From positions 1 through 44,527 of IMG/VR virus record IMGVR_UViG_3300020222_000048: DNA of 44,527 nt. The stretch is one strand, 5' to 3'. The stretch comes from a virus. Numbering within the stretch: the stretch's first letter is position 1; every line of letters starts with the position of its first letter. A program made the position numbers and the translations under genes. The notes beneath the pieces are model-generated. The model saw only the letters and a program-made list of their open reading frames with translations, searched no databases and was not told the DNA's origin. Positions 8,937 through 41,434 of the stretch are shown here, in pieces.

Positions 8937-10739
8937 ATGGCTAAAAAAATAATACCTATTAAATACACAAGTCGTGATTTTCAGAGCATAAAAGACGATT
9001 TAATAGAACATGCTAAGAGATATTATAAAGATTCTTATAAGGATTTTAACGAAGCGTCGTTCGGCTCTTTAATGCTAGATTCTGTAGCATATATAGGCGA
9101 TATGTTATCTTTCTATATTGATTATCAGGCAAATGAAAGCTTTCTTGATAATGCGGTAGAGTATGAAAATATTATAAAAATAGGTAGACAATTAGGATAT
9201 AAATTTACTAATTCTGTTTCTTCAACAGGGGTGGCTAGTTTTTATATTTCTCTTCCGGCTATAGCTGGTGGTTTAACACCTAATTTTGATTATGCGCCCG
9301 TATTAAAAAGAGGTAGTACTTTTAAAACAGTCAACGGAGTATCGTTTATATTAAACGAAGATGTAAGATTTGATAATCCAAACAATGAAATAAGGGTAAG
9401 TACAGTAGACGAAGACGGATCACCGACTTTTTATGCTGTAAAGGCGGTAGGAACTGTAGTTTCTGGCTTGACAACATCAGAAACTGTATCTGTCGGCGCA
9501 TATGAGAGATTTAAGAAAATTAATTTAAATCAGTTAGATATTGTTGAAATATTATCTGTTGTAGACTCAGAGGGTAATGAATATTTTGAAGTTGATTATT
9601 TATCTCAAAATGTTATTTATAAATCTTATACTAATAAAAATCCTACTGATGCCGTATTGGCAAAAGAAATATTAAAACCATTTGTTGTTCCAAGAAGATT
9701 TGTGGTTGATAGAAACTTAAGAACTACCTCATTACAATTCGGTGCTTCAACTAATATAGAGCTAGATAATTCTAATAATATCAGTTTTGAGCCTACCAAT
9801 GTAGTATTGGATATCTATGGAAAAGATTATATTTCCAGCGACTCTTTTGACCCTTCAAGACTATTAAATAATGATAAATTTGGTATTTGTCCTTCAAATA
9901 CCACTCTTACTGTCACATATAGATATAACGATTCTTCTAATGGCGTTAACTTTGCAGTTAACTCTTTAAATTCTGTTTCAAATGCAAAGTTTGACTTTAT
10001 GAATGAACAAGATTTAGACCCTGATTTAGTAGATGCTGTACAGGAAAGTTTAGAAATAAACAACGATGTTCCATTACTTGGTGATGTTACTGTAATAGAT
10101 TCTGAGGAGTTAAAGAGAAGAATTGAAAATAGCTTTTCTGCTCAGAATAGAGCTGTAACGCAGCAAGATTATAAATCTTTAGTATATGCAATGCCATCCA
10201 AATTTGGAGCTATTAAAAGAGTAAATATTATAAGAGATGATAATTCCTTAAAGAGAAATTTAAATCTTTATATCTTATGTGAAGACGCAGATGAAAAACT
10301 AACCATCGCTAATCAAAGCGTAAAATCAAACATAAAAACGTGGCTAAGTCGCAATAAAATGATTAATGATTCTATAGATATATTAGATGGAAAAATTATT
10401 AATTATGCTATTACGTTTGTAGCTTTAGGTACAAATGAAAAGGCAAAAAGCGATATTTTAATTGATGCCCTAAATCAACTCAAGTCTGATTTTTCGAGAC
10501 TTCCTGATTTTGGAGAAACATTTAATATTATTGATATCTATTCTAGCTTGAAAAAAGTTCCATCTATTATTGATGTTGTTTCTGTTAAAGTGGAGCCAAG
10601 AGTTGGAAATAATTACTCTAATTCACAAATGGATTTTAAACAAAATACAACTGCTGATGGAAGGTTTATAAGTGTACCTCTCAATGTTGTAATGGAATTA
10701 AAATATCCGGATAGTGATATAAAAGGAACAATTTTATAA
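8937..10739 (+). CDS. 6: Baseplate wedge protein, gp6 / baseplate J-like (600 aa)
   Basis: The N-terminus reads KKIIPIKYTSRDFQSIKDDL, then EASFGSLMLDSVAYIGDMLS and YIDYQANESFLDNAVEYENI. This is the typical opening of T4 gp6-like and P2 J-like wedge proteins, with a helical N-terminal part followed by beta-rich repeats. A second J-like landmark is RAVTQQDYKSLVYAMPSKFG (residues ~405-425). In the contractile-tail family this protein forms the iris ring that changes diameter during baseplate expansion. Its length is close to T4 gp6 (about 660 aa). A good TGAGGAAAG ribosome binding site lies at about 8922-8930. The stop overlaps the next start as TAATG. Confidence 0.9.
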   Translation: MAKKIIPIKYTSRDFQSIKDDLIEHAKRYYKDSYKDFNEASFGSLMLDSVAYIGDMLSFYIDYQANESFLDNAVEYENIIKIGRQLGYKFTNSVSSTGVASFYISLPAIAGGLTPNFDYAPVLKRGSTFKTVNGVSFILNEDVRFDNPNNEIRVSTVDEDGSPTFYAVKAVGTVVSGLTTSETVSVGAYERFKKINLNQLDIVEILSVVDSEGNEYFEVDYLSQNVIYKSYTNKNPTDAVLAKEILKPFVVPRRFVVDRNLRTTSLQFGASTNIELDNSNNISFEPTNVVLDIYGKDYISSDSFDPSRLLNNDKFGICPSNTTLTVTYRYNDSSNGVNFAVNSLNSVSNAKFDFMNEQDLDPDLVDAVQESLEINNDVPLLGDVTVIDSEELKRRIENSFSAQNRAVTQQDYKSLVYAMPSKFGAIKRVNIIRDDNSLKRNLNLYILCEDADEKLTIANQSVKSNIKTWLSRNKMINDSIDILDGKIINYAITFVALGTNEKAKSDILIDALNQLKSDFSRLPDFGETFNIIDIYSSLKKVPSIIDVVSVKVEPRVGNNYSNSQMDFKQNTTADGRFISVPLNVVMELKYPDSDIKGTIL

Positions 10740-15100: not shown

Positions 15101-18100
15101 GTAATGACTTAATAGATATTTCTCCTATTGACGATTTTACTAGAACAAAACAATCAAAACCATATACATATTTTATTGCTATAGAAAAAAGTATGGCTCA
15201 AGTTATAAATGATGAAATACTTGATTGGTTTGCTACTATAAAAGATTTTAATAACTTAATCGGAGATCCCTCAGAGAGATATCGTATTGAATATAACGGT
15301 CTTGCACACTTAAGAAAATTATTTTTCAGTAGAGTAAATAATGAACCAAGTTATGAAAAGTTTTTAGAATTTTATAAATGGATTGATTCTTCTATAACTG
15401 TTTTAATAAATCAAATATTACCAGCTAGTGCAAATATAACAGACAAAATTAGAAACGTAGTCGAAAGTCACATATTAGAAAGAAATAAATACGAAAATAA
15501 ATTACCAACCTTAGAATTTAAAGGAAAAGTTAAGTCATATCCCGTTCAATCACATTTAGAATATAATTATGTGGAACAAGCAGCAGAATTATCTAGCTTA
15601 TCTGAACAATTAAAAGTCAGCAGATACTATAATTTTAAGCCTATATGGTTAAAGAATAGGGTGGAAAGAAACAACACCTTAGTTGATACGGATCTTTTAC
15701 CACAAAATGATATAGATAGAGAAGTTCTAAGACAAATTATAAACAATAAAAATCTAGATTCTCCACCGACAGTATACTTGCCAAATGATATTACTGGTTA
15801 TGAACATGATACATACAAAATTAGAACATTATCTAAAACATATAAATTAAATACAGATAAGTTAATAATTTGTGAAGATATAATAAAACCAATAAATATA
15901 GAAAATACAAAATTTACAGGACAGATACAATTTGCAGAAGACTTAGAAAATTCTGCTAGTTCTGATGTACTACCTAAATCCTATAAGAAACAAGGAAATT
16001 TCTTAAATAATTATGAATACTTACAGACTTCTGGAAGAACTGAAAACAATAAATCATTTGTTTCTGCATCTGGAATTTTAACCAGTACTTCTTCTGTTAA
16101 TGAACTAGGATATGCTGATAAAAGTTTAATACAAAGAGCTGCAAAAAAGAATGTATTTGTTGAAAGATTTAGTGCTCCCGGTGGCGCAGAAGTAAATAGT
16201 AGAGGTGCATTAGATAGAGATGCGGAAGAATATTCTGCTTACAATAACTTAAATTATAGAAATTTTAGAGTTAGAAAACAACTACATGCTTGGTTGGCGG
16301 AAAGCATGAGTATAAATCCAGTAAATCCTTCTTATCATAAAGTAAATAGAAACTTTGGTTATCTACCGGGAGAACCATATTATGAATATGTTGGAGGAAA
16401 TTCTGGTAATGGACCAATTCCTACATATACTTTATCTTCGTCTGCTTATACATTAAATAATTTCATGGGTATCCTTTATGATACAGGAGGTGTAGATCAA
16501 GATTATTTAATTTCAGAGCAAAAATATGTATTTATTGAACCACCGGGAGGTATAACTAAATTTACTATTAATTCTTTCTCTACTGCTGATTTTAATGATA
16601 AATTAAAAATTTATTACAATCCCAATCCAGAAATAGAAGTTGAATTACCAAAGCCTCATGGCGCAGGCGGCAGCCAAGGTTGGTCTGATATTTCATTAGG
16701 ATTAAATAATAACGCTCTTGCATTAGCTAAAATAGATAATAAAATATATGTTGCTGGCGATTTTGCGTTTAATGGTAGCGAAGCAGTTAATTTAAATTCT
16801 ATTGCTGTTTGGGAATCAGGTAGTAATTTAATGCCTCTAAGCGGTGGCGGTGTAGACACTGACGGAGGTGAAGAAATAAATTGCTTATATGTAAGTGGCA
16901 CCGATATATACGTTGGAGGAAATTTTTATACAGTCGGTGTTGACCCATTAATTACAATCCAGCAGCCTTTAACTGATTGGACCATTTTAACAGCTTCAAC
17001 GGTATTTTCAGTAGAATATCCATATAAAATATTTTCTGTAAATGATACTTTATATGTTGCTGGATATTGTGATACAACTTCTAAAAATGGTATTTCCTAT
17101 TATAATGAAACATCCGGATGGCAAATTTTAACTTCTAGTGATGGATACTATATAAGCGGTACAATACACGCTATAGTAGTTAAAGATAATTATATTTATT
17201 ATGCCGGTAACATAAGAAATGTTAATAATACATCTGATATCTTAGCTCAATCAAATATTGGTAGATATGATCTGACAACTAATACTTATGAAACTCTAGG
17301 TACGCCACATATAGATATTACAGATTTTTCTTCTGGTTCTTATGTAAACTGCATGACCATTTCTGGTTCTGATGTATATGTTGGATTATGGGATGCAAAA
17401 AATTATATAGTATGGAAATGGGATGGCTCTTCTTGGTCGGGCGTGGGAGATCAAATACTAAACTTTGTTCCTACCTATGCAAATGATATTCAATTTAGCG
17501 GTAGTGATATTTATCTTGGTGTAACATTTGAGGCTGGTTTATGGACTCTTTCTTCAAGTATTTGGATTCCAGTAGCAAATTATGACGGCTCATATGTTAA
17601 GCAAAATAATATAAACCCTAATTACAATAGTTCAACGGGTTTAGAAGCGTTAAAGGGTGAAAGTGGAGTATCAACCGTAAGAAAAATTATTGTCAATGAT
17701 GATGGAACTATAGATATATTTGGCGGTTTCAATAAATTAGCTGATAATAATGGAAATGCAATTTTAGAATTAAGCGGCGCAGCTAAAATATCATTTGATG
17801 TAACTGGTAGTATAGTTTTTAGTCAAATCGGTGATGGTTTGTTGGTATATGGTAGTCCCACATATGATACAAGATATGTACAACAAATACACGCGGCTCA
17901 TTACAGTGGCAGTGACTTATATGTTGCAGGAGCATTTGACGATTATACAAGTTATAAGGTCTATAAATTAGTCGGAACGGCTTGGATACCACAACTTTCC
18001 AGTGATTATTCTTCTGGCGAAGGAGTAATTTATGATTTTACCTTTTTAGGAGAAAAAACTTATTTTGTCGGTAATGACTTATTAGATTCCATTAATAGTA

Positions 18101-20289
18101 ATTACAATAACGTATTACAAACTGGTGGAACCATAACAGTTCCAACGCCAACTACATCAGTAAACAACATAGCTAAATACGATACTTTAACTGATGCTTG
18201 GTCTTCTTTGGGAGATGGATTACCAGATACGGTTTGGACAATTACTAAATTTAATGGTGAGATATATGCCGGATACGATGGAGAAGACGCATTAAGTGGT
18301 AATTATATATCTAAATTTAATGGAACATCTTGGGAACCTGTTGGCGTTGGAGATGAAATAAGTACATCTGTTTATGCTTTAGCGTCTTCAGGAAGTGACT
18401 TATATATTGGAGGTAATTTTTTCTTCCCCAAACCGGATGGAGATGAAAGAATAGCTGTATGGAATGGTACTTCTTGGAGAGGTTTTTTTGAAGGAGTTAC
18501 ATATCCTACTTCTTCCTATGTCTGGTATCACAACGGCGCTATAAGCGCTTTAGAAGTTTATGAAAATAAATTATATATTGGTGGCGATTTCACCAATATG
18601 CGTACAGGCATCGGTGGAGAAGAGGTTTATAACCATATATGCGTTTTTGATACTGAAACCGGAATTGTATCTGCTTTAGGAAATGGTTTAAATGATATAG
18701 TGAAAACCATATTTGTTTCTGATAGCAATAATGTATATGCCGGTGGTTCTTTTACTGTCACTGGTAATTTTATTTCTAAATGGAATGGAACAAATTGGTC
18801 ACAGCTTGGAAATGATTTAATAACATCTGGCGGTAATTATGTAACTGATATTTTAGTTAGTGGTAATTGTATATTTGTAGTTGGCGATTATACAACCAGT
18901 AGTTTATATAGCGCTTATGAACATGGCGTTGGTAGATATTGTGAAGTTCCAACATACACTTTATTAGCCGAATTATCTGGTTCTGAGGGTCTAGATTATA
19001 GCTCTTCTTCTATTCAAACCATAAATACATTCCCGTATGATATAACGATACCAGAAGAAAATGGTAAATTTTTAATTTCTTGGGTTACAGATGAAGAGGA
19101 TACAAATTCTGGTTTCTCTATTACTTGGAATGAAGATCAATATATAGCTCCCGTTCCACCAACACTAGTTTTAACTGCGGTAGCAAAATCAATAAAACAC
19201 GATAACGAATATGTTGTACATCAAATACCAAGAAATGATATTCAATATGCTTGGATGACGGCATCCGCCGTTCCATCGTTATTGCCTTATGGATTTATCA
19301 ACGGATATGCTAATCAATATTTTTCTACAATAAGCTTTTTATCAGGTAACCTTTCTGGCTCTCATATAATAGATTATGTTGGATTAAACAACGTTATATT
19401 TAAAAACGTTAACACCTCTTCTAATACGATATCACCAGATGGTAATGTTATTGACGTAAACGCATATATTTCTAATATCTATGGCCCTTATCAGGGTGCT
19501 TCTTGGAAGCAAATTAGAGGAACAGAAAATAAATTAGTAAATATTTCTAGAAAAAATAACCATATCCTAGTACAAGATGTTCCTAAGATTAGAACTATAG
19601 TAAATAATGATCGTACTAAAACGACTACCATAGATAGCAGAAGCACAAATTTCACTTCCTATAAAGAACCGGCTGTTGACTATAATTATCCTATGGAACA
19701 TAAGGTAATGATTAGTAGTTCATTGGACGGAATACAAAATATTAATATTGTTAACAGTTATGATAACAATAAAAATTTACTATCTAATATAGATTTAAGC
19801 TTAAGATTATCTGTATCGGAAAGACAGGAATTACAAACACACGATTTACTAAATAATTTATCTAAAGATAACACTTATGATCCAAGTCCGGTTATAAATG
19901 AAGCTTCTTATATACAACAAGTATTTCCATCTAGAGAAACTGTAACTATTAAAGAAATAAGAGTAAAAGATAATTATGATGATAATTTAGTTAATTCCTC
20001 CAGCGTGGCACATGTAAAAACATATTGGAAGGAAAACTATATTGACCGTAGAAGAATAGATGGAAGCAGTGATCTATTTAGCTCTATAAGCTCATCTTAT
20101 ACCGCGTTAACTAATTTTACATCCTCTATTTTAGGAAAGTGTCCGGTTATTCATAATGTATCCGGAACACACTATGCGTCTATTTATTCAATTGATAATT
20201 TAACTGGTTCTTTTAATGAATATAATAGTAATATTAGCGGTTCAATTGCAAGACCAATAATTCCGTGGGCAAGACGTTTTATTTTATAA
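12172..20289 (+). CDS. Giant tail/baseplate-periphery protein: LamG - tail core - LamG - split CUB-like with beta-propeller array (2705 aa)
   Basis: The order of recognisable parts is as follows. A conserved-looking N-terminus holds FTSASNFARYGSAERYY. A LamG/concanavalin-like fold spans ~155-370 (GNTVEFWFKDEYSSTGSL ... KWHHYAFTF ... YDELRFWKVARNS). A tail-core region spans ~470-610 (YNNLTFIYKSKGTEKSLRNL, IRCFGVDDELVKINLY). A second LamG-like region spans ~655-865 (ISNLRLWFDYLNNDELLSHA). A helical region spans ~895-1170 (LPASANITDKIRNVVESHIL, ERNKYENKLPTLE), which I recall in other large marine phages. About 14 blade-like repeats (DIYVGGNF, KLYIGGDF, NVYAGGSF) lie at ~1504-2255. CUB-like halves flank the array at ~1454-1495 and ~2260-2322. 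A C-terminal ~380-residue region follows. The protein most likely sits on the baseplate periphery and offers carbohydrate- or receptor-binding modules. It is not one of the standard T4 proteins. Confidence 0.7.
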   Translation: MSLKNLFGKTSENIISNKELQKIYDDSESQQYVEQVIEEKNKFIPVVDFTSASNFARYGSAERYYVDALTNIYQNYPYDGSKKEKLEWRNRSTPFDLYVFDNLYPKTTGYVNLSANITLSSQIVDLVSYRSSSAPQYITVKGGPNPAIDGKFENSNIYDLKTNRECNLGITQQGNTVEFWFKDEYSSTGSLTNSRYALFDLWNGKAKSDNSYSRLLIENLNGTSFGVTYMSGSSGADRVSIEHSIDKNKWHHYAFTFKNNSQNNNNLDISLYVDGDLVKKITTTATGKINLANNSGMIANIGAYRTNIDANNNAWNGFGVSYGSYDELRFWKVARNSKQIFNSWHRSSGGGTNKDTANTNLGIYFKFNEGVIDENNINDLDKICLDYSGRLSNGVIVNYTAGCKNTSSAINEYFSKIIEEKEPIIFSSNPLVQQVIDEYSILGFQYDQTNPTSFYKSVPSWIVDETENKDYQDLNYLIQIISSYFDSLHLYIEKLPRIKDVEYLKSVDKQKTFTKNLLTSHGFEFSDIFSDASLYEELFSSTEKEDFSDKLYNVKNAIYQNIYNNLTFIYKSKGTEKSLRNLIRCFGVDDELVKINLYADNITYDLKDRYVPTAIKKKYINFNNTDKITGFIYQKQTPGNPTSKGFITGSTDEKLKFIPLTFETEVIFPKRNDVYSIDYFSAQYTDVSLFGVHTAKDDENDLSWGSDKFNFYVYATKIANDSPDVYFSLSGSFNGQQIYVTSSVYKNTYNNEKWNLSVRLYPDKLNNINLTSGSDEITKYYLDFVGYNVLGDDVNNNFIVSANILSGNYEEAIKQNKRLYVGAHYENFDGTTIKAYSDVKISNLRLWFDYLNNDELLSHALEVNTHGRQYPNWNPNYLNSIVNTFTSSYIISSQDTLVLDWTFEDVTSSDNNGQFYVKDFSSGSLDANYNYGLGWLADYLTNEYTAFGDKFFPNDLSTVENQYIYSLKKQQPETLNSNDLIDISPIDDFTRTKQSKPYTYFIAIEKSMAQVINDEILDWFATIKDFNNLIGDPSERYRIEYNGLAHLRKLFFSRVNNEPSYEKFLEFYKWIDSSITVLINQILPASANITDKIRNVVESHILERNKYENKLPTLEFKGKVKSYPVQSHLEYNYVEQAAELSSLSEQLKVSRYYNFKPIWLKNRVERNNTLVDTDLLPQNDIDREVLRQIINNKNLDSPPTVYLPNDITGYEHDTYKIRTLSKTYKLNTDKLIICEDIIKPINIENTKFTGQIQFAEDLENSASSDVLPKSYKKQGNFLNNYEYLQTSGRTENNKSFVSASGILTSTSSVNELGYADKSLIQRAAKKNVFVERFSAPGGAEVNSRGALDRDAEEYSAYNNLNYRNFRVRKQLHAWLAESMSINPVNPSYHKVNRNFGYLPGEPYYEYVGGNSGNGPIPTYTLSSSAYTLNNFMGILYDTGGVDQDYLISEQKYVFIEPPGGITKFTINSFSTADFNDKLKIYYNPNPEIEVELPKPHGAGGSQGWSDISLGLNNNALALAKIDNKIYVAGDFAFNGSEAVNLNSIAVWESGSNLMPLSGGGVDTDGGEEINCLYVSGTDIYVGGNFYTVGVDPLITIQQPLTDWTILTASTVFSVEYPYKIFSVNDTLYVAGYCDTTSKNGISYYNETSGWQILTSSDGYYISGTIHAIVVKDNYIYYAGNIRNVNNTSDILAQSNIGRYDLTTNTYETLGTPHIDITDFSSGSYVNCMTISGSDVYVGLWDAKNYIVWKWDGSSWSGVGDQILNFVPTYANDIQFSGSDIYLGVTFEAGLWTLSSSIWIPVANYDGSYVKQNNINPNYNSSTGLEALKGESGVSTVRKIIVNDDGTIDIFGGFNKLADNNGNAILELSGAAKISFDVTGSIVFSQIGDGLLVYGSPTYDTRYVQQIHAAHYSGSDLYVAGAFDDYTSYKVYKLVGTAWIPQLSSDYSSGEGVIYDFTFLGEKTYFVGNDLLDSINSNYNNVLQTGGTITVPTPTTSVNNIAKYDTLTDAWSSLGDGLPDTVWTITKFNGEIYAGYDGEDALSGNYISKFNGTSWEPVGVGDEISTSVYALASSGSDLYIGGNFFFPKPDGDERIAVWNGTSWRGFFEGVTYPTSSYVWYHNGAISALEVYENKLYIGGDFTNMRTGIGGEEVYNHICVFDTETGIVSALGNGLNDIVKTIFVSDSNNVYAGGSFTVTGNFISKWNGTNWSQLGNDLITSGGNYVTDILVSGNCIFVVGDYTTSSLYSAYEHGVGRYCEVPTYTLLAELSGSEGLDYSSSSIQTINTFPYDITIPEENGKFLISWVTDEEDTNSGFSITWNEDQYIAPVPPTLVLTAVAKSIKHDNEYVVHQIPRNDIQYAWMTASAVPSLLPYGFINGYANQYFSTISFLSGNLSGSHIIDYVGLNNVIFKNVNTSSNTISPDGNVIDVNAYISNIYGPYQGASWKQIRGTENKLVNISRKNNHILVQDVPKIRTIVNNDRTKTTTIDSRSTNFTSYKEPAVDYNYPMEHKVMISSSLDGIQNINIVNSYDNNKNLLSNIDLSLRLSVSERQELQTHDLLNNLSKDNTYDPSPVINEASYIQQVFPSRETVTIKEIRVKDNYDDNLVNSSSVAHVKTYWKENYIDRRRIDGSSDLFSSISSSYTALTNFTSSILGKCPVIHNVSGTHYASIYSIDNLTGSFNEYNSNISGSIARPIIPWARRFIL
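16681..18936 (+). repeat. Beta-propeller repeat array inside the 2705-aa protein
   Basis: Blade-like units recur about every 45-65 residues, each with a 'hydrophobic-Y-x-G-G-x-F' strand (for example at about residues 1524, 1579, 1626, 1674, 1734, 1779, 1846, 1916, 1962, 2029, 2076, 2133, 2187 and 2233). Most are followed by a 'I-W/KWNGTSW' strand. About 14 units can be counted by eye, which would suit two seven-bladed propellers. The DNA copies have diverged, so this is an old array rather than a recent expansion. Confidence 0.7.
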
Positions 20290-20329
20290 AATTTAACTTT
20301 TTTGATATAATATACTTTGGAGTTTAATA

Positions 20330-36512: not shown

Positions 36513-37901
36513 ATGGCTAATCCATTAAAGATTTTAACAGTGTTATCAGCTTCTAAAGCAGTTGAAATGGAAGAAACATTAAAAGTAATTGGTAATGCAG
36601 ATTTCGATTCACAATTAACAGCTTCTTGGTTAAAAGTAGAAAACAGTGCTGACGTAGACGGTGCATTAGATGTAGGCGGCGCAGCAAGCTTAGCTAGCAC
36701 ATTAAGCGTAACAGGTATTGCTGACTTTGATTCACAAGTAACAGCATCATCCTTGAAAGTAGAAAACGCAGCCGAAGTAGCAGGTGCTGCTACATTCGGT
36801 AGCACAATGAAGGTTATTGGCAATGCCGACTTTGACGCTCAAGTAACTGCTTCTTTATTGAAGGTAGAAGGTGCAGCTGAAATTGCTGGCGCAGCAGAAT
36901 TAGGTTCTACATTACACGTAGTTGGTATTGCAGATTTCGATTCACAAGTAACTGCTTCTGCTTTGAAAGTAGAAAATGCAGCTGAAGTAGTAGGCGCTGC
37001 TACATTTGGTAGCACAATGACAGTTATTGGTAATGCTGACTTTGATGCACAATTGACGGCTTCTACTGCAAAAGTAGAAGGTGCTGCTGAAATTGCTGGT
37101 GCTGCTGAATTCGGCTCAACCATGCATGTAGTTGGCAATGCTGACTTTGATGCACAATTAACAGCATCTGCTTTGAAAGTAGAAAATGACGCACAAATCG
37201 TAGGCGATTTATCAGTACGCGATATTGCTGCACGTTCTGGCTCATTCTCTGGCGATTTGTCAGTTCAAGGTAACTTGCTAGTCGAAGGTGCATTAACTTA
37301 CATCAATACTGCCAATTTAGATGTAACAGACAAACAAATCACTATTGCTAAAGGTTCTGCTGATGCCGCTGCTGCTAACGGCGCAGGAATTTTAGTAGAA
37401 GGCGCTGCTGCTTCTCTTACCTATAATAGCACAGGTGATAAATGGTCATTCAATAAAGACCTACAATTAGACGCTGGTAATCAAATGTTCCTTTCTGGTG
37501 CATTGTTTGCTAATGCAACAGTAGAAACAGCACGCGATGGTTCTGGTTTCTATGATGTTGACGATGTGTTGCACAAATTAGCAAGCGCTGGTTCTTCATT
37601 CCAAGCAGCTTATAACGCCGCTCGTTATGTTGAAGTTGGCTCATTGTCATCCGGTACGGCTACTGTAAACATTACTTCTGGCGCAGCATCATTGTTGTTT
37701 GCTGTAGCAGAAAAGAACAACATTGCTCTTGACGTAGTAGTAAGCGTTGATGACGGTGCAAGCTGGACAAACGACTTAGTAGCAGTCAAATTATATGCTG
37801 ATGGTCTTTCATTAAAGGTACAAATCGAAGCACCAGCTATGTCTGGGGAAGAGGGTGCTAAGTACCGTTTGATTGCTGTAAACGAAAAAGATTTAACATA
37901 A
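36513..37901 (+). CDS. Tail fibre-like protein with 35-residue repeats (462 aa)
   Basis: Residues 1-24 form an N-terminal peptide (MANPLKILTVLSASKAVEME) resembling those of the other three fibre proteins. Residues 25 to about 230 contain six repeats of about 35 residues with the core NADFDAQLTASALKVEN-AAE---GAA-FGSTM. Such Ala/Val/Gly-rich periodic sequence is typical of beta-helical fibre shafts. Residues ~230-330 are a further beta-rich shaft (LDVTDKQITIAKGSADAAAA). The last ~110 residues (FYDVDDVLHKLASAGSS ... NDLVAVKLYADGL ... KYRLIAVNEKDL) are the recurrent C-terminal domain of this cassette. The gene is visibly less AT-rich than its neighbours and is bracketed by its own promoter, leader and a strong terminator, so high independent expression is likely. 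Confidence 0.72.
   Translation: MANPLKILTVLSASKAVEMEETLKVIGNADFDSQLTASWLKVENSADVDGALDVGGAASLASTLSVTGIADFDSQVTASSLKVENAAEVAGAATFGSTMKVIGNADFDAQVTASLLKVEGAAEIAGAAELGSTLHVVGIADFDSQVTASALKVENAAEVVGAATFGSTMTVIGNADFDAQLTASTAKVEGAAEIAGAAEFGSTMHVVGNADFDAQLTASALKVENDAQIVGDLSVRDIAARSGSFSGDLSVQGNLLVEGALTYINTANLDVTDKQITIAKGSADAAAANGAGILVEGAAASLTYNSTGDKWSFNKDLQLDAGNQMFLSGALFANATVETARDGSGFYDVDDVLHKLASAGSSFQAAYNAARYVEVGSLSSGTATVNITSGAASLLFAVAEKNNIALDVVVSVDDGASWTNDLVAVKLYADGLSLKVQIEAPAMSGEEGAKYRLIAVNEKDLT
36585..37196 (+). repeat. Tandem 105-bp (35-residue) repeats in fibre gene, six units
   Basis: Units begin at about 36585, 36708, 36813, 36918, 37023 and 37128. The first is longer by six residues and the last is partial. 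Alternate units are more alike (KVEN-AAEV--GAATFGSTM versus KVEGAAEIAGAAE-GST-H), giving a higher-order period of 210 bp. The DNA is similar enough to allow unequal recombination. Confidence 0.85.
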
Positions 37902-38056: not shown

Positions 38057-41000
38057 ATGGCTAACGTAAGACCATTAACTGTATATACAAATTTAGACGC
38101 TAAGCAAGATATTAATGCTAGCGGTAGTGTAAAAATATTTACAAGCGACAGCTTTAATAGAACAAGTATTATTACTTCTTCTGCCGGTATGTATGATCTA
38201 GACGGCGCTTTACATGAATTAGATCAAGCAATAGTTGATAAAGGCATAGAAATTAAAGACGCCTATGAAGCTGTAAGATATAAGAAATCAGATGTTTTAG
38301 ACGAAAGCGGAAAAGCATTATTAAACTTAACCTCTTTAGCATCTTCTGGTGCTAGTTATTTTACAACTGGCAATTTACAAGATATTGCCATAGATTTATT
38401 AGTTGATACAGAAAAGAACGGTCGTTATAAAAACGACATGGCTTCTGTCCAATTGTATTCCAGCGCTAGCGCTTTATGGGCTGAAATTGATGCTCCCGGT
38501 GCCAGTGCAGCACCATATCGTTTTATAGCAGTAAATGAAACTATACTAGCATTATTAGGTAGTGCCTCTGGTCAAGGTGGTGGAGGCGCTGGCGGCTCAG
38601 GAGATATAACAGCCGTTATTGCTGGCACAAATTTAACCGGCGGTGCAGCATCAGGTGATGCAACTATAAACTTAAATTCTGTATTATCCGGATTAAGCAG
38701 CGTTACATCTACAGGTTTTACAGGTAGTTTGTTAGGTAATGCCTCTACTGCCACATCGGCAACCAGTGCCGTTACAGCACAAACAGCTTCTTATATTGCT
38801 ACAGGTTCAGCAATTTCTACATTTACACAAGATGTGAGAGCACAATTTAGTGCTGGATCTAATATTACAATTACTGATGGTGTTATCGCCTCTACTGCTG
38901 GAGGCGGTGGAGGATCTTATGCTTTAGGCGATCAATTAACTGCTTCTTATTTAAGAATTTATACAGAAGAAATTAGTCAACAAGCATCTTCATTGACTAA
39001 TAATATGATTTCTTATTTTAGTTTTGATGGTAATTTAAATGATTCTGTTTCCGCTAATACTGCTTCTAGAAACTGGAGTTTTGCACAAAATCCCGCTTCT
39101 TCTTCTGCATTTGTTGTAGGTGGTCAAGGTTTTTCTTTCTTTCCTTATGAATGGCCTTATAACAGCTCGCATTTAATATTGTCTTCATCAATACCATTAT
39201 CTTCTTCAGGTGGTGATTGGTCTTTTTCATGTTGGGTTAAGCCACAATACTTTAGTAACAGTAATAGACACGCAATCATAGGCGATATCGGAGATCCTAA
39301 TTTTAGTTGGGCCGATCCAGCTTATGCCGGTAAACAAGACCGCACACGCGACGGTTTTGGTCTTACAAATCTTAATGCTAATAGCTATGGAACAATTTAT
39401 GGTGGCACTTCAAGCGGTAGTTTGTATATTCGTTCTGGTGACACAATTGTTAATTTTACTAGCACAATTGTATCAGGTACTTGGTATCATTTAGTTCTTA
39501 CATATGATAAAACAGCACAAAAAGTTAAATGCTATGTTGATAATGTTTTAGACTCAGAACAAACTTTAGCTGATACTTTTGATGTTAAATATTTTGGTGC
39601 TGTTTATAATAATAATGATCCATTACATGGTTATGGTGATGAATTTGGTTTTTGGAATAGAAAAATAACAATAAATGAAATTACTTCATTATATAACAGT
39701 GGTGCTGGAAAATTATATTCTGATTTATCAGCACAAATAAATAATAATATACTTCCTAGCGGCTCTATCACGTTATCAGGTAGTTTCAACATGACAGGTA
39801 CGTTTAATCTAAATGGCGCTTCCTATACTGATTTAGCATCACTAGGAGAATTAAATGCCTCTGCTGCTGGATTAGCTAATACAATTACCGTTGTTTCTGG
39901 CAATATTTCTGGAACTATAAATAATTTATCTGGTAATATTGTAAATTATATTAATACTGTTTCAAACGCTGGCACACAATTTTTGACAGACACAATTACC
40001 GGAAGTGTGTTAGAATATTATAAAGCTGGAACGGGAATTAGTTTAGTAAATGGCACATTTAGTGCAGCTAGTGTTCCTAACGCTTCCCTACAAAATAGCT
40101 CTATTACTATTAACGGTTCACAAGTAAGTTTAGGTAGTTCTATTAACGTTGGAGATATTACTAGCGTTACTGCTGGCTCTAATTTGTCTGGAGGTGGAAA
40201 CTCTGGTGATGTTACAATTAGTTTAGCGTCCACTTTAACAGGTTTATCTAATGTTACTTCTACTGGATTTACTGGTAGTCTACTGGGTAACGCTTCTACT
40301 GCTACTGTTGCCGTTACAGCTCAAACAGCTTCTTTGGCAACATTAGCTACATTAGCTACAACTGCTGAAACAGCTTCTTATATGTCTAGTGGTTCTAAAA
40401 TTGCAACATTTACCAATGATGTAAGAAATCAATTTAGTGCTGGTAATAATATAACGATTACAAATGGTATGATTGCAGCTTCAGAAAATTCAATTTATAT
40501 CGGTGATAAAATCATTACAGGTTCTTTGACAGTTGCTCCTACTTATCCTTATGGAACTGGTTCTTTAACAAGTTCTTTAGAGGCATATTTTAGTCTACAA
40601 ACTAGTTCTTATGATGCATTAGAATCGGCAATAGTATCTTATGATGAAGTTGGAACATATAAAGCCGTAGTTATGCCAAATGTAACAATTTCACACGAAC
40701 AATCTGTTAAATTTAAAGGAGCATCATTTACTACTTCTATCAACGATTGGTGGACAGAAAATGTTTTAGAAATAAAACCTAATATACAATTAAAAGATTA
40801 TAATGAATTTACTATTAATTATTGGACTTATTTTACACAATATAGTGTAGGAGTTTTATCTACTATTAAACATCATTTTACTACAAATGAACCATATAGT
40901 AATAATGGCGATAACAGTATTATTTATGCTGGAAATATCATAGCGTCTAATTGGCCTGTAACTACAGGATATGCCACTTATCAAGTTGATAATACTGGTA

Positions 41001-41434
41001 TGGGTACTAATGTTTGGGGAATGATTTCTGTTACATACAATAAATCTACCGGAGTGGCTAAGTTTTATACCAATGGTATTTATCGTTCTTCCAATACAAT
41101 CACTAATTGGAATATGGTCATTAAATATCTTGGTATTGGAAAATATGACGAAATAGGAATATGGTCTAGAGTGTTAAACGATTCAGATATATCTGCGTTA
41201 TATAATAGTGGAAATGGTACTAGTTATAGTGAAATTTCTGATCTTTCGTCAGTTACTGCGGGGGGAAGTATCCAATTTAATGGAGATTTATCTGTTGGCG
41301 GTGATTGTAATGTAAATCAAATTAAAATAGATTCTCAAGCTAATGCTCTTGGTCCGTCCCTTTTAGGTACTTTAGCGGTTTCTGGCTCACATCTATACTT
41401 TTATGATGGTAATGATTGGAAAATGATAATTTAG
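38057..41434 (+). CDS. Tail fibre-like adhesin with two LamG-like domains (1125 aa)
   Basis: The N-terminal peptide MANVRPLTVYTNLDAKQDIN resembles those of the other fibre proteins. Residues ~38-160 hold the recurrent cassette domain (MYDLDGALHELDQAIV ... RYKNDMASVQLY ... YRFIAVNE). A Ser/Thr/Gly/Ala-rich shaft block (~182-282, with STGFTGSLLGNASTAT and QFSAGSNITITDGVIAS) is followed by a LamG-like domain at ~314-553 (YFSFDGNLNDSVSAN, GTWYHLVLTYDKTAQKVKCY, EFGFWNRKITINEITSLYNS). The same shaft block (~699-808) and a second LamG-like domain (~836-1055) then repeat. The end (GSHLYFYDGNDWKMII) is typical of a fibre tip. LamG domains bind glycans or proteins, so host-surface binding is likely. 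The gene is followed by a terminator and seems to form its own transcription unit. Confidence 0.75.
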   Translation: MANVRPLTVYTNLDAKQDINASGSVKIFTSDSFNRTSIITSSAGMYDLDGALHELDQAIVDKGIEIKDAYEAVRYKKSDVLDESGKALLNLTSLASSGASYFTTGNLQDIAIDLLVDTEKNGRYKNDMASVQLYSSASALWAEIDAPGASAAPYRFIAVNETILALLGSASGQGGGGAGGSGDITAVIAGTNLTGGAASGDATINLNSVLSGLSSVTSTGFTGSLLGNASTATSATSAVTAQTASYIATGSAISTFTQDVRAQFSAGSNITITDGVIASTAGGGGGSYALGDQLTASYLRIYTEEISQQASSLTNNMISYFSFDGNLNDSVSANTASRNWSFAQNPASSSAFVVGGQGFSFFPYEWPYNSSHLILSSSIPLSSSGGDWSFSCWVKPQYFSNSNRHAIIGDIGDPNFSWADPAYAGKQDRTRDGFGLTNLNANSYGTIYGGTSSGSLYIRSGDTIVNFTSTIVSGTWYHLVLTYDKTAQKVKCYVDNVLDSEQTLADTFDVKYFGAVYNNNDPLHGYGDEFGFWNRKITINEITSLYNSGAGKLYSDLSAQINNNILPSGSITLSGSFNMTGTFNLNGASYTDLASLGELNASAAGLANTITVVSGNISGTINNLSGNIVNYINTVSNAGTQFLTDTITGSVLEYYKAGTGISLVNGTFSAASVPNASLQNSSITINGSQVSLGSSINVGDITSVTAGSNLSGGGNSGDVTISLASTLTGLSNVTSTGFTGSLLGNASTATVAVTAQTASLATLATLATTAETASYMSSGSKIATFTNDVRNQFSAGNNITITNGMIAASENSIYIGDKIITGSLTVAPTYPYGTGSLTSSLEAYFSLQTSSYDALESAIVSYDEVGTYKAVVMPNVTISHEQSVKFKGASFTTSINDWWTENVLEIKPNIQLKDYNEFTINYWTYFTQYSVGVLSTIKHHFTTNEPYSNNGDNSIIYAGNIIASNWPVTTGYATYQVDNTGMGTNVWGMISVTYNKSTGVAKFYTNGIYRSSNTITNWNMVIKYLGIGKYDEIGIWSRVLNDSDISALYNSGNGTSYSEISDLSSVTAGGSIQFNGDLSVGGDCNVNQIKIDSQANALGPSLLGTLAVSGSHLYFYDGNDWKMII

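Follow-up and report, generated by a model that had tools for sequence, protein, structure and literature searches.

Evidence for a CUB domain split by two tandem beta-propellers at a module-exchange site in a tail protein of an uncultured phage

Results

Genes and features of the locus

The window, i.e. the whole 44.5-kb stretch of DNA analysed here, encodes the large protein P0001 and, directly downstream, P0002 (Table 1). One gene separates P0001 from the upstream gene of a gp6-like baseplate wedge protein (phrog_219), and a distant homologue of P0001 occupies a comparable location in Flavobacterium phage immuto, separated by two genes from the annotated baseplate wedge protein. Because of the nearby wedge gene and the similar position of the immuto homologue, we read P0001 as a probable structural protein of the baseplate/tail-tip region, its exact position in the virion being likewise deduced. 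A frame error or two genes inside P0001 were ruled out: the reading frame has no interruption, and three records show it unchanged.

In the species to which the window belongs, a 40-base gap (20290-20329) with a stop and a new start divides the tail protein into two genes; this split, too, is identical in three records. The propeller-bearing insertion of P0002 is common to L003/L172 and, by position, L174, and is missing from L004 and L005.

Table 1. Coordinates of the features described in this study.
Feature	Residues	Position in window	Strand	Remarks
Window				44.5-kb virus record; tail and head genes all in one direction
gp6-like baseplate wedge gene		8937-10739		phrog_219 match
P0001	2705 aa	12172..20289	+	ORF; tail/baseplate-region protein hosting the nested insert
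Gained block	~1403-2340 of P0001	16378..19191	+	CUB and propellers; relatives with the empty site lack it
CUB first half	1425-1485 of P0001	16444..16626	+	CUB HMM 9-71, 27 bits in whole protein; HHalign 95.6%
Propeller 1	~1500-1885 of P0001	16669..17826	+	Blade motifs 1525, 1579, 1627, 1675, ~1735, 1781, 1847
Propeller 2	~1886-2258 of P0001	17827..18945	+	Blade motifs 1916, ~1965, ~2032, 2077, 2134, 2188, 2234
CUB second half	~2260-2322 of P0001	18949..19137	+	CUB HMM ~77-116; HHalign joined flanks 97%
P0002	1413 aa	20330..24571	+	Continues P0001; single ORF in most relatives
Second propeller-bearing insertion	~44-438 of P0002	20459..21643	+	

Elsewhere in the window, a 1125-aa ORF (38057-41434) contains a laminin-G-like domain (PF13385) at its residues 375-542, and another laminin-G-like domain is located at residues 170-340 of P0001. 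In the ORF at 36513-37901, which also matches Bactofilin (PF04519), a 105-base unit is repeated in tandem 4.5 times (36714-37188).

Two halves of one CUB domain

A CUB domain is a single beta-sandwich of about 110 residues. The first-pass annotation, made from the sequence alone, had read two stretches of P0001 as the halves of such a fold with a propeller array inserted between them; the sequences that it quoted are present in P0001, in frame. We used PF00431 to collect CUB domains from Bacteroidota genomes and built an HMM of 120 positions from 29 aligned members. When the uncut P0001 was compared with this profile, a match to positions 9-71 was obtained for residues 1425-1485 (27 bits, E about 4e-7), followed by a weaker one to positions 81-116 for residues 2285-2320 (7 bits). 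A half-CUB does lie where the first half had been placed (~1454-1495), but by profile its extent is longer; it starts with FMGILYDTGGVDQDY. The range proposed for the second half was reproduced, although this half scored weakly when taken alone (15 bits). With the array removed, the joined flanks reached 44.2 bits (E 2e-12) and covered positions 9-116. The two halves are separated at a single loop, after the strand 'L-x-I-Y-D-G'.

Could the flanks be unrelated short beta segments that resemble a CUB by chance? The joined flanks were not detected by Pfam PF00431, and searches of NCBIfam and PDB sequences with them reported no CUB; the match thus depends on the profile of bacterial CUBs. Against a fortuitous match, 2000 shuffles of the joined flanks peaked at 10.6 bits, and 2000 pairs of unrelated P0001 segments gave a maximum of 8.7 bits. 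When the first half was kept fixed and the second piece was slid across P0001, all of the top-scoring starts fell at ~2240-2293 (best, 50.5 bits; elsewhere no more than 39.7 bits), coinciding with the end of the propeller array. With 20,000 random segments of the relatives' tail proteins as the second piece, none scored 50.5 bits and 7 reached 44.2 bits (maximum, 45.5 bits). Moreover, the profile ranges are exactly complementary on both sides of the array. A chance resemblance is largely refuted by these data, and we regard it as very improbable. Two separate complete domains were ruled out by the same complementarity (positions 9-71 and ~77-116).

In HHalign with another CUB alignment of 125 columns, the joined flanks had a probability of 97.0% (columns 16-121), compared with 95.6% for the first half (columns 15-75) and 46.9% for the second half (columns 91-121). 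The alignment employed is that of a true CUB, retrieving cubilin, neuropilins, PCPE-1 and MASPs from PDB (down to 1e-55). At the level of sequence, these results confirmed that P0001 carries one CUB domain split in two by the propeller array.

The calcium-site Glu/Asp/Asp is found only in calcium-binding CUBs. As judged by eye from the HHalign alignment, two canonical CUB residues are apparently replaced in P0001 (Ala stands in place of Glu, and Tyr in place of the YDG-motif Asp), and the Asp before Leu and the Asp near the last loop are kept. Calcium binding by the P0001 CUB may therefore be lost.

Two tandem propellers between the halves

The block between the CUB halves (residues ~1500-2258) comprises ~760 residues, as originally estimated, with 14 blade motifs spaced 45-69 residues apart. 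Ten of the motifs were found via a regular expression and four were added by eye (~1735, 1781, 1965 and 2032). In AlphaFold models, the blade strands mostly showed pLDDT of 70-95, and the best PDB match in Foldseek was the two-propeller periplasmic domain of BT4663 (E 5e-15, TM up to about 0.5). With 14 motifs, modelled blade strands and a double-propeller match, two tandem seven-bladed beta-propellers are the simplest reading of the array. In Pfam the block matches Rax2/DUF5122, so the repeats are referred to as Rax2/DUF5122-like; their bacterial relatives, from many phyla, share about 30% identity.

The propellers were modelled well in both AlphaFold runs; the CUB flanks showed pLDDT of about 30-58. 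In run 1, for which the alignment contained propeller rows only and the CUB-half rows were misaligned, the flanks were unresolved. In run 2, CUB rows covered residues 1417-1485 and 2260-2323, yet the flanks showed pLDDT of about 31-58. The input of run 2 was a MAFFT alignment picked by repeated trial to set viral CUB rows on both flanks; such a selection favours the CUB reading, so run 2 was not counted as support, and its flank values speak neither for nor against the sandwich.

The low confidence at both flanks, together with the apparent loss of canonical residues and the weak score of the second half, would fit a decayed remnant whose halves no longer fold together, the propellers being tethered by beta-rich linkers. 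However, P0001 retains the hydrophobic pattern of the core as well as the two terminal strands, and the joined flanks score 44-50 bits with the bacterial profile and 97% in HHalign across nearly the full domain. We consider decay unlikely and prefer the reading of one split CUB domain.

Gain of the CUB-propeller block at a site that is empty in relatives

We compared P0001 with 16 relatives from a first scan and with 80 of at least 501 related stretches in a second scan. Same-species records aside, in the relatives aligning on both sides, the equivalent of residues 1-~1400 joins that of ~2335 onward nearly directly or via another module. Between the two motifs flanking the site there are 33-37 aa in the closest relatives, versus 967 in the window species. 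The homologues without the array, to which the first-pass annotation had pointed as a test, thus exist, and in the empty site of its relatives P0001 resembles an 'evolved tail protein'.

The same junction holds laminin-G domains in four relatives, L219, L221 (two domains), L224 and L234 (Pfam, 9e-13 to 5e-36); that of L234 lies just before, not just after, the conserved NRN motif. In L216, L202, L207, L211, L230 and L215, it is filled by other sequences. By alignment, the laminin-G domains and other sequences in relatives show the junction at residue ~1402 to be a place of repeated module gain, or module-exchange hot spot.

As to what was gained, no CUB match was found at the site in any other relative compared (same-species records aside), nor was a CUB without propellers found there in any relative examined; the CUB and propellers (~930 aa) are missing together. 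As far as alignments can tell, module gain is demonstrated for the CUB-propeller block as a whole. The module gain proposed by the first-pass annotation is thereby upheld by the empty site in many relatives, but for a larger unit than the propellers. Entry of the propeller into a CUB already in place is something we can only infer, because no relative keeps an intact CUB at the site.

The cassette might instead have been built elsewhere, in a bacterial gene or another phage, and gained ready-nested. The joint absence of CUB and propellers from all relatives examined fits such an origin, as do the lack of a CUB-only intermediate among them and the presence of whole domains as the other modules at the junction. 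On the other hand, the nested CUB-propeller unit was found only in the same phage species when viral contigs and genomes were scanned, and the bacterial CUBs among the best-scoring matches listed were near full length, with none ending at the split point. We give ready-nested acquisition a chance not far short of even. Such an acquisition bears on where the cassette came from and does not conflict with our preferred account of its architecture, a split CUB carrying two propellers. Among 149 genomes sampled from a single bacterial class, 102 contain a CUB domain, which makes a donor plausible. The GC content of the cassette is 0.34 versus 0.28 in the N-terminal part of P0001, with similar codon distances; GC content and codon usage gave no clear foreign signal for the cassette, and the events were not dated by composition.

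Secreted-looking proteins (with a hydrophobic N-terminus by eye) that combine a LamG-like part with an intact CUB are encoded in many IMG/VR contigs (L139-L164). They may be phage cargo genes or bacterial contamination.

Discussion

Based on the features read from the sequence (the split CUB, 14 blades, the empty site and other adhesion-type modules at this site), we propose how the cassette may work. A module-acceptance site at residue ~1402 of P0001 would hold a nested cassette of ~930 aa, in which the loop after the 'L-x-I-Y-D-G' strand of a Bacteroidota-type CUB beta-sandwich is extended by two tandem seven-bladed propellers. The CUB halves would fold together in place as a pedestal and bring the chain back to the tail scaffold. 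The ~760 propeller residues would thereby be displayed laterally at the surface, leaving the scaffold undisturbed, and could bind a cell-surface molecule as an accessory adhesin, the target being probably a glycan of a Bacteroidota host. We consider this nested split-CUB/double-propeller architecture with an adhesin role to be quite probable. With relatives having either nothing or a different sugar-binding-type domain at the same spot, the P0001 block looks like a swappable host-binding cassette.

A more far-reaching view, which we offer tentatively and hold to be somewhat doubtful, is that the CUB is a socket whose loop exchanges large binding modules. It would be the first CUB recognised in a phage tail protein, and the junction would be a general site of module swapping in a widespread phage group, here with nesting at two levels (scaffold, CUB and double propeller). 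In the open-access literature searched, we found no paper that brings together CUB domain, bacteriophage and tail fiber.

A domain within a domain at a tolerant junction would be a route to a presumed adhesion device of ~100 kDa without breaking the tail protein. Since laminin-G-type domains occupy the same junction in other phages, the junction may also mark where host-binding modules are to be sought and predicted in a large uncultured phage group (at least 501 related stretches).

Tail proteins into which an adhesion module has been inserted are of a known kind, as indicated by propeller insertions in Dit- and Gp37-like proteins and by the published evolved Dit; the novelty here lies in the scaffold, in the presence of a CUB and in the nesting at two levels. 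In the evolved Dit of skunaviruses, carbohydrate-binding modules are inserted in the distal tail protein, with a proven effect on adsorption (PMC10688798), which is a precedent for the P0001 insert as an adhesin. Like P0001, evolved Dit has an adhesion-type module internal to a tail-tip protein and an empty version in relatives. P0001 differs in its scaffold (baseplate-region, near the gp6-like gene), in its far larger insert (~930 aa) and in that the insert itself is nested.

The first-pass annotation had called the architecture unusual for a phage tail protein; this holds for the CUB but not for the propeller insertion, which also occurs in other phages. Rax2/DUF5122-like propellers, i.e. 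the same type of repeat, are spliced inside Dit-like tail proteins (families SPP1_Dit, Sipho_tail, minor-tail and Dit) of unrelated IMG/VR phages, at 6711-9299 in L021, 7224-9242 in L022, 6870-9338 in L025 and 7194-9074 in L029, each located between an N-terminal part and a C-terminal Dit-type part. Propellers of the same type are also inserted in a Gp37-like tail protein of L027 and L028. Unlike P0001, the four Dit-like proteins have one propeller between the Dit parts and no CUB.

With the secreted CUBs of Bacteroidota (PF00431), P0001 shares YDxGG...Y, I-x-P, SF, D-x-L-x-I-Y and the terminal GF-x-x-x-W strand, whereas its copy lies in a phage tail protein, is interrupted by ~760-770 residues and has apparently lost two canonical residues. 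BT4663 (PDB 4a2l, 4a2m) also has two seven-bladed propellers in tandem, similar in length to those of the P0001 block; in contrast, the identity is about 10%, and BT4663 is a periplasmic sensor domain, not a tail adhesin.
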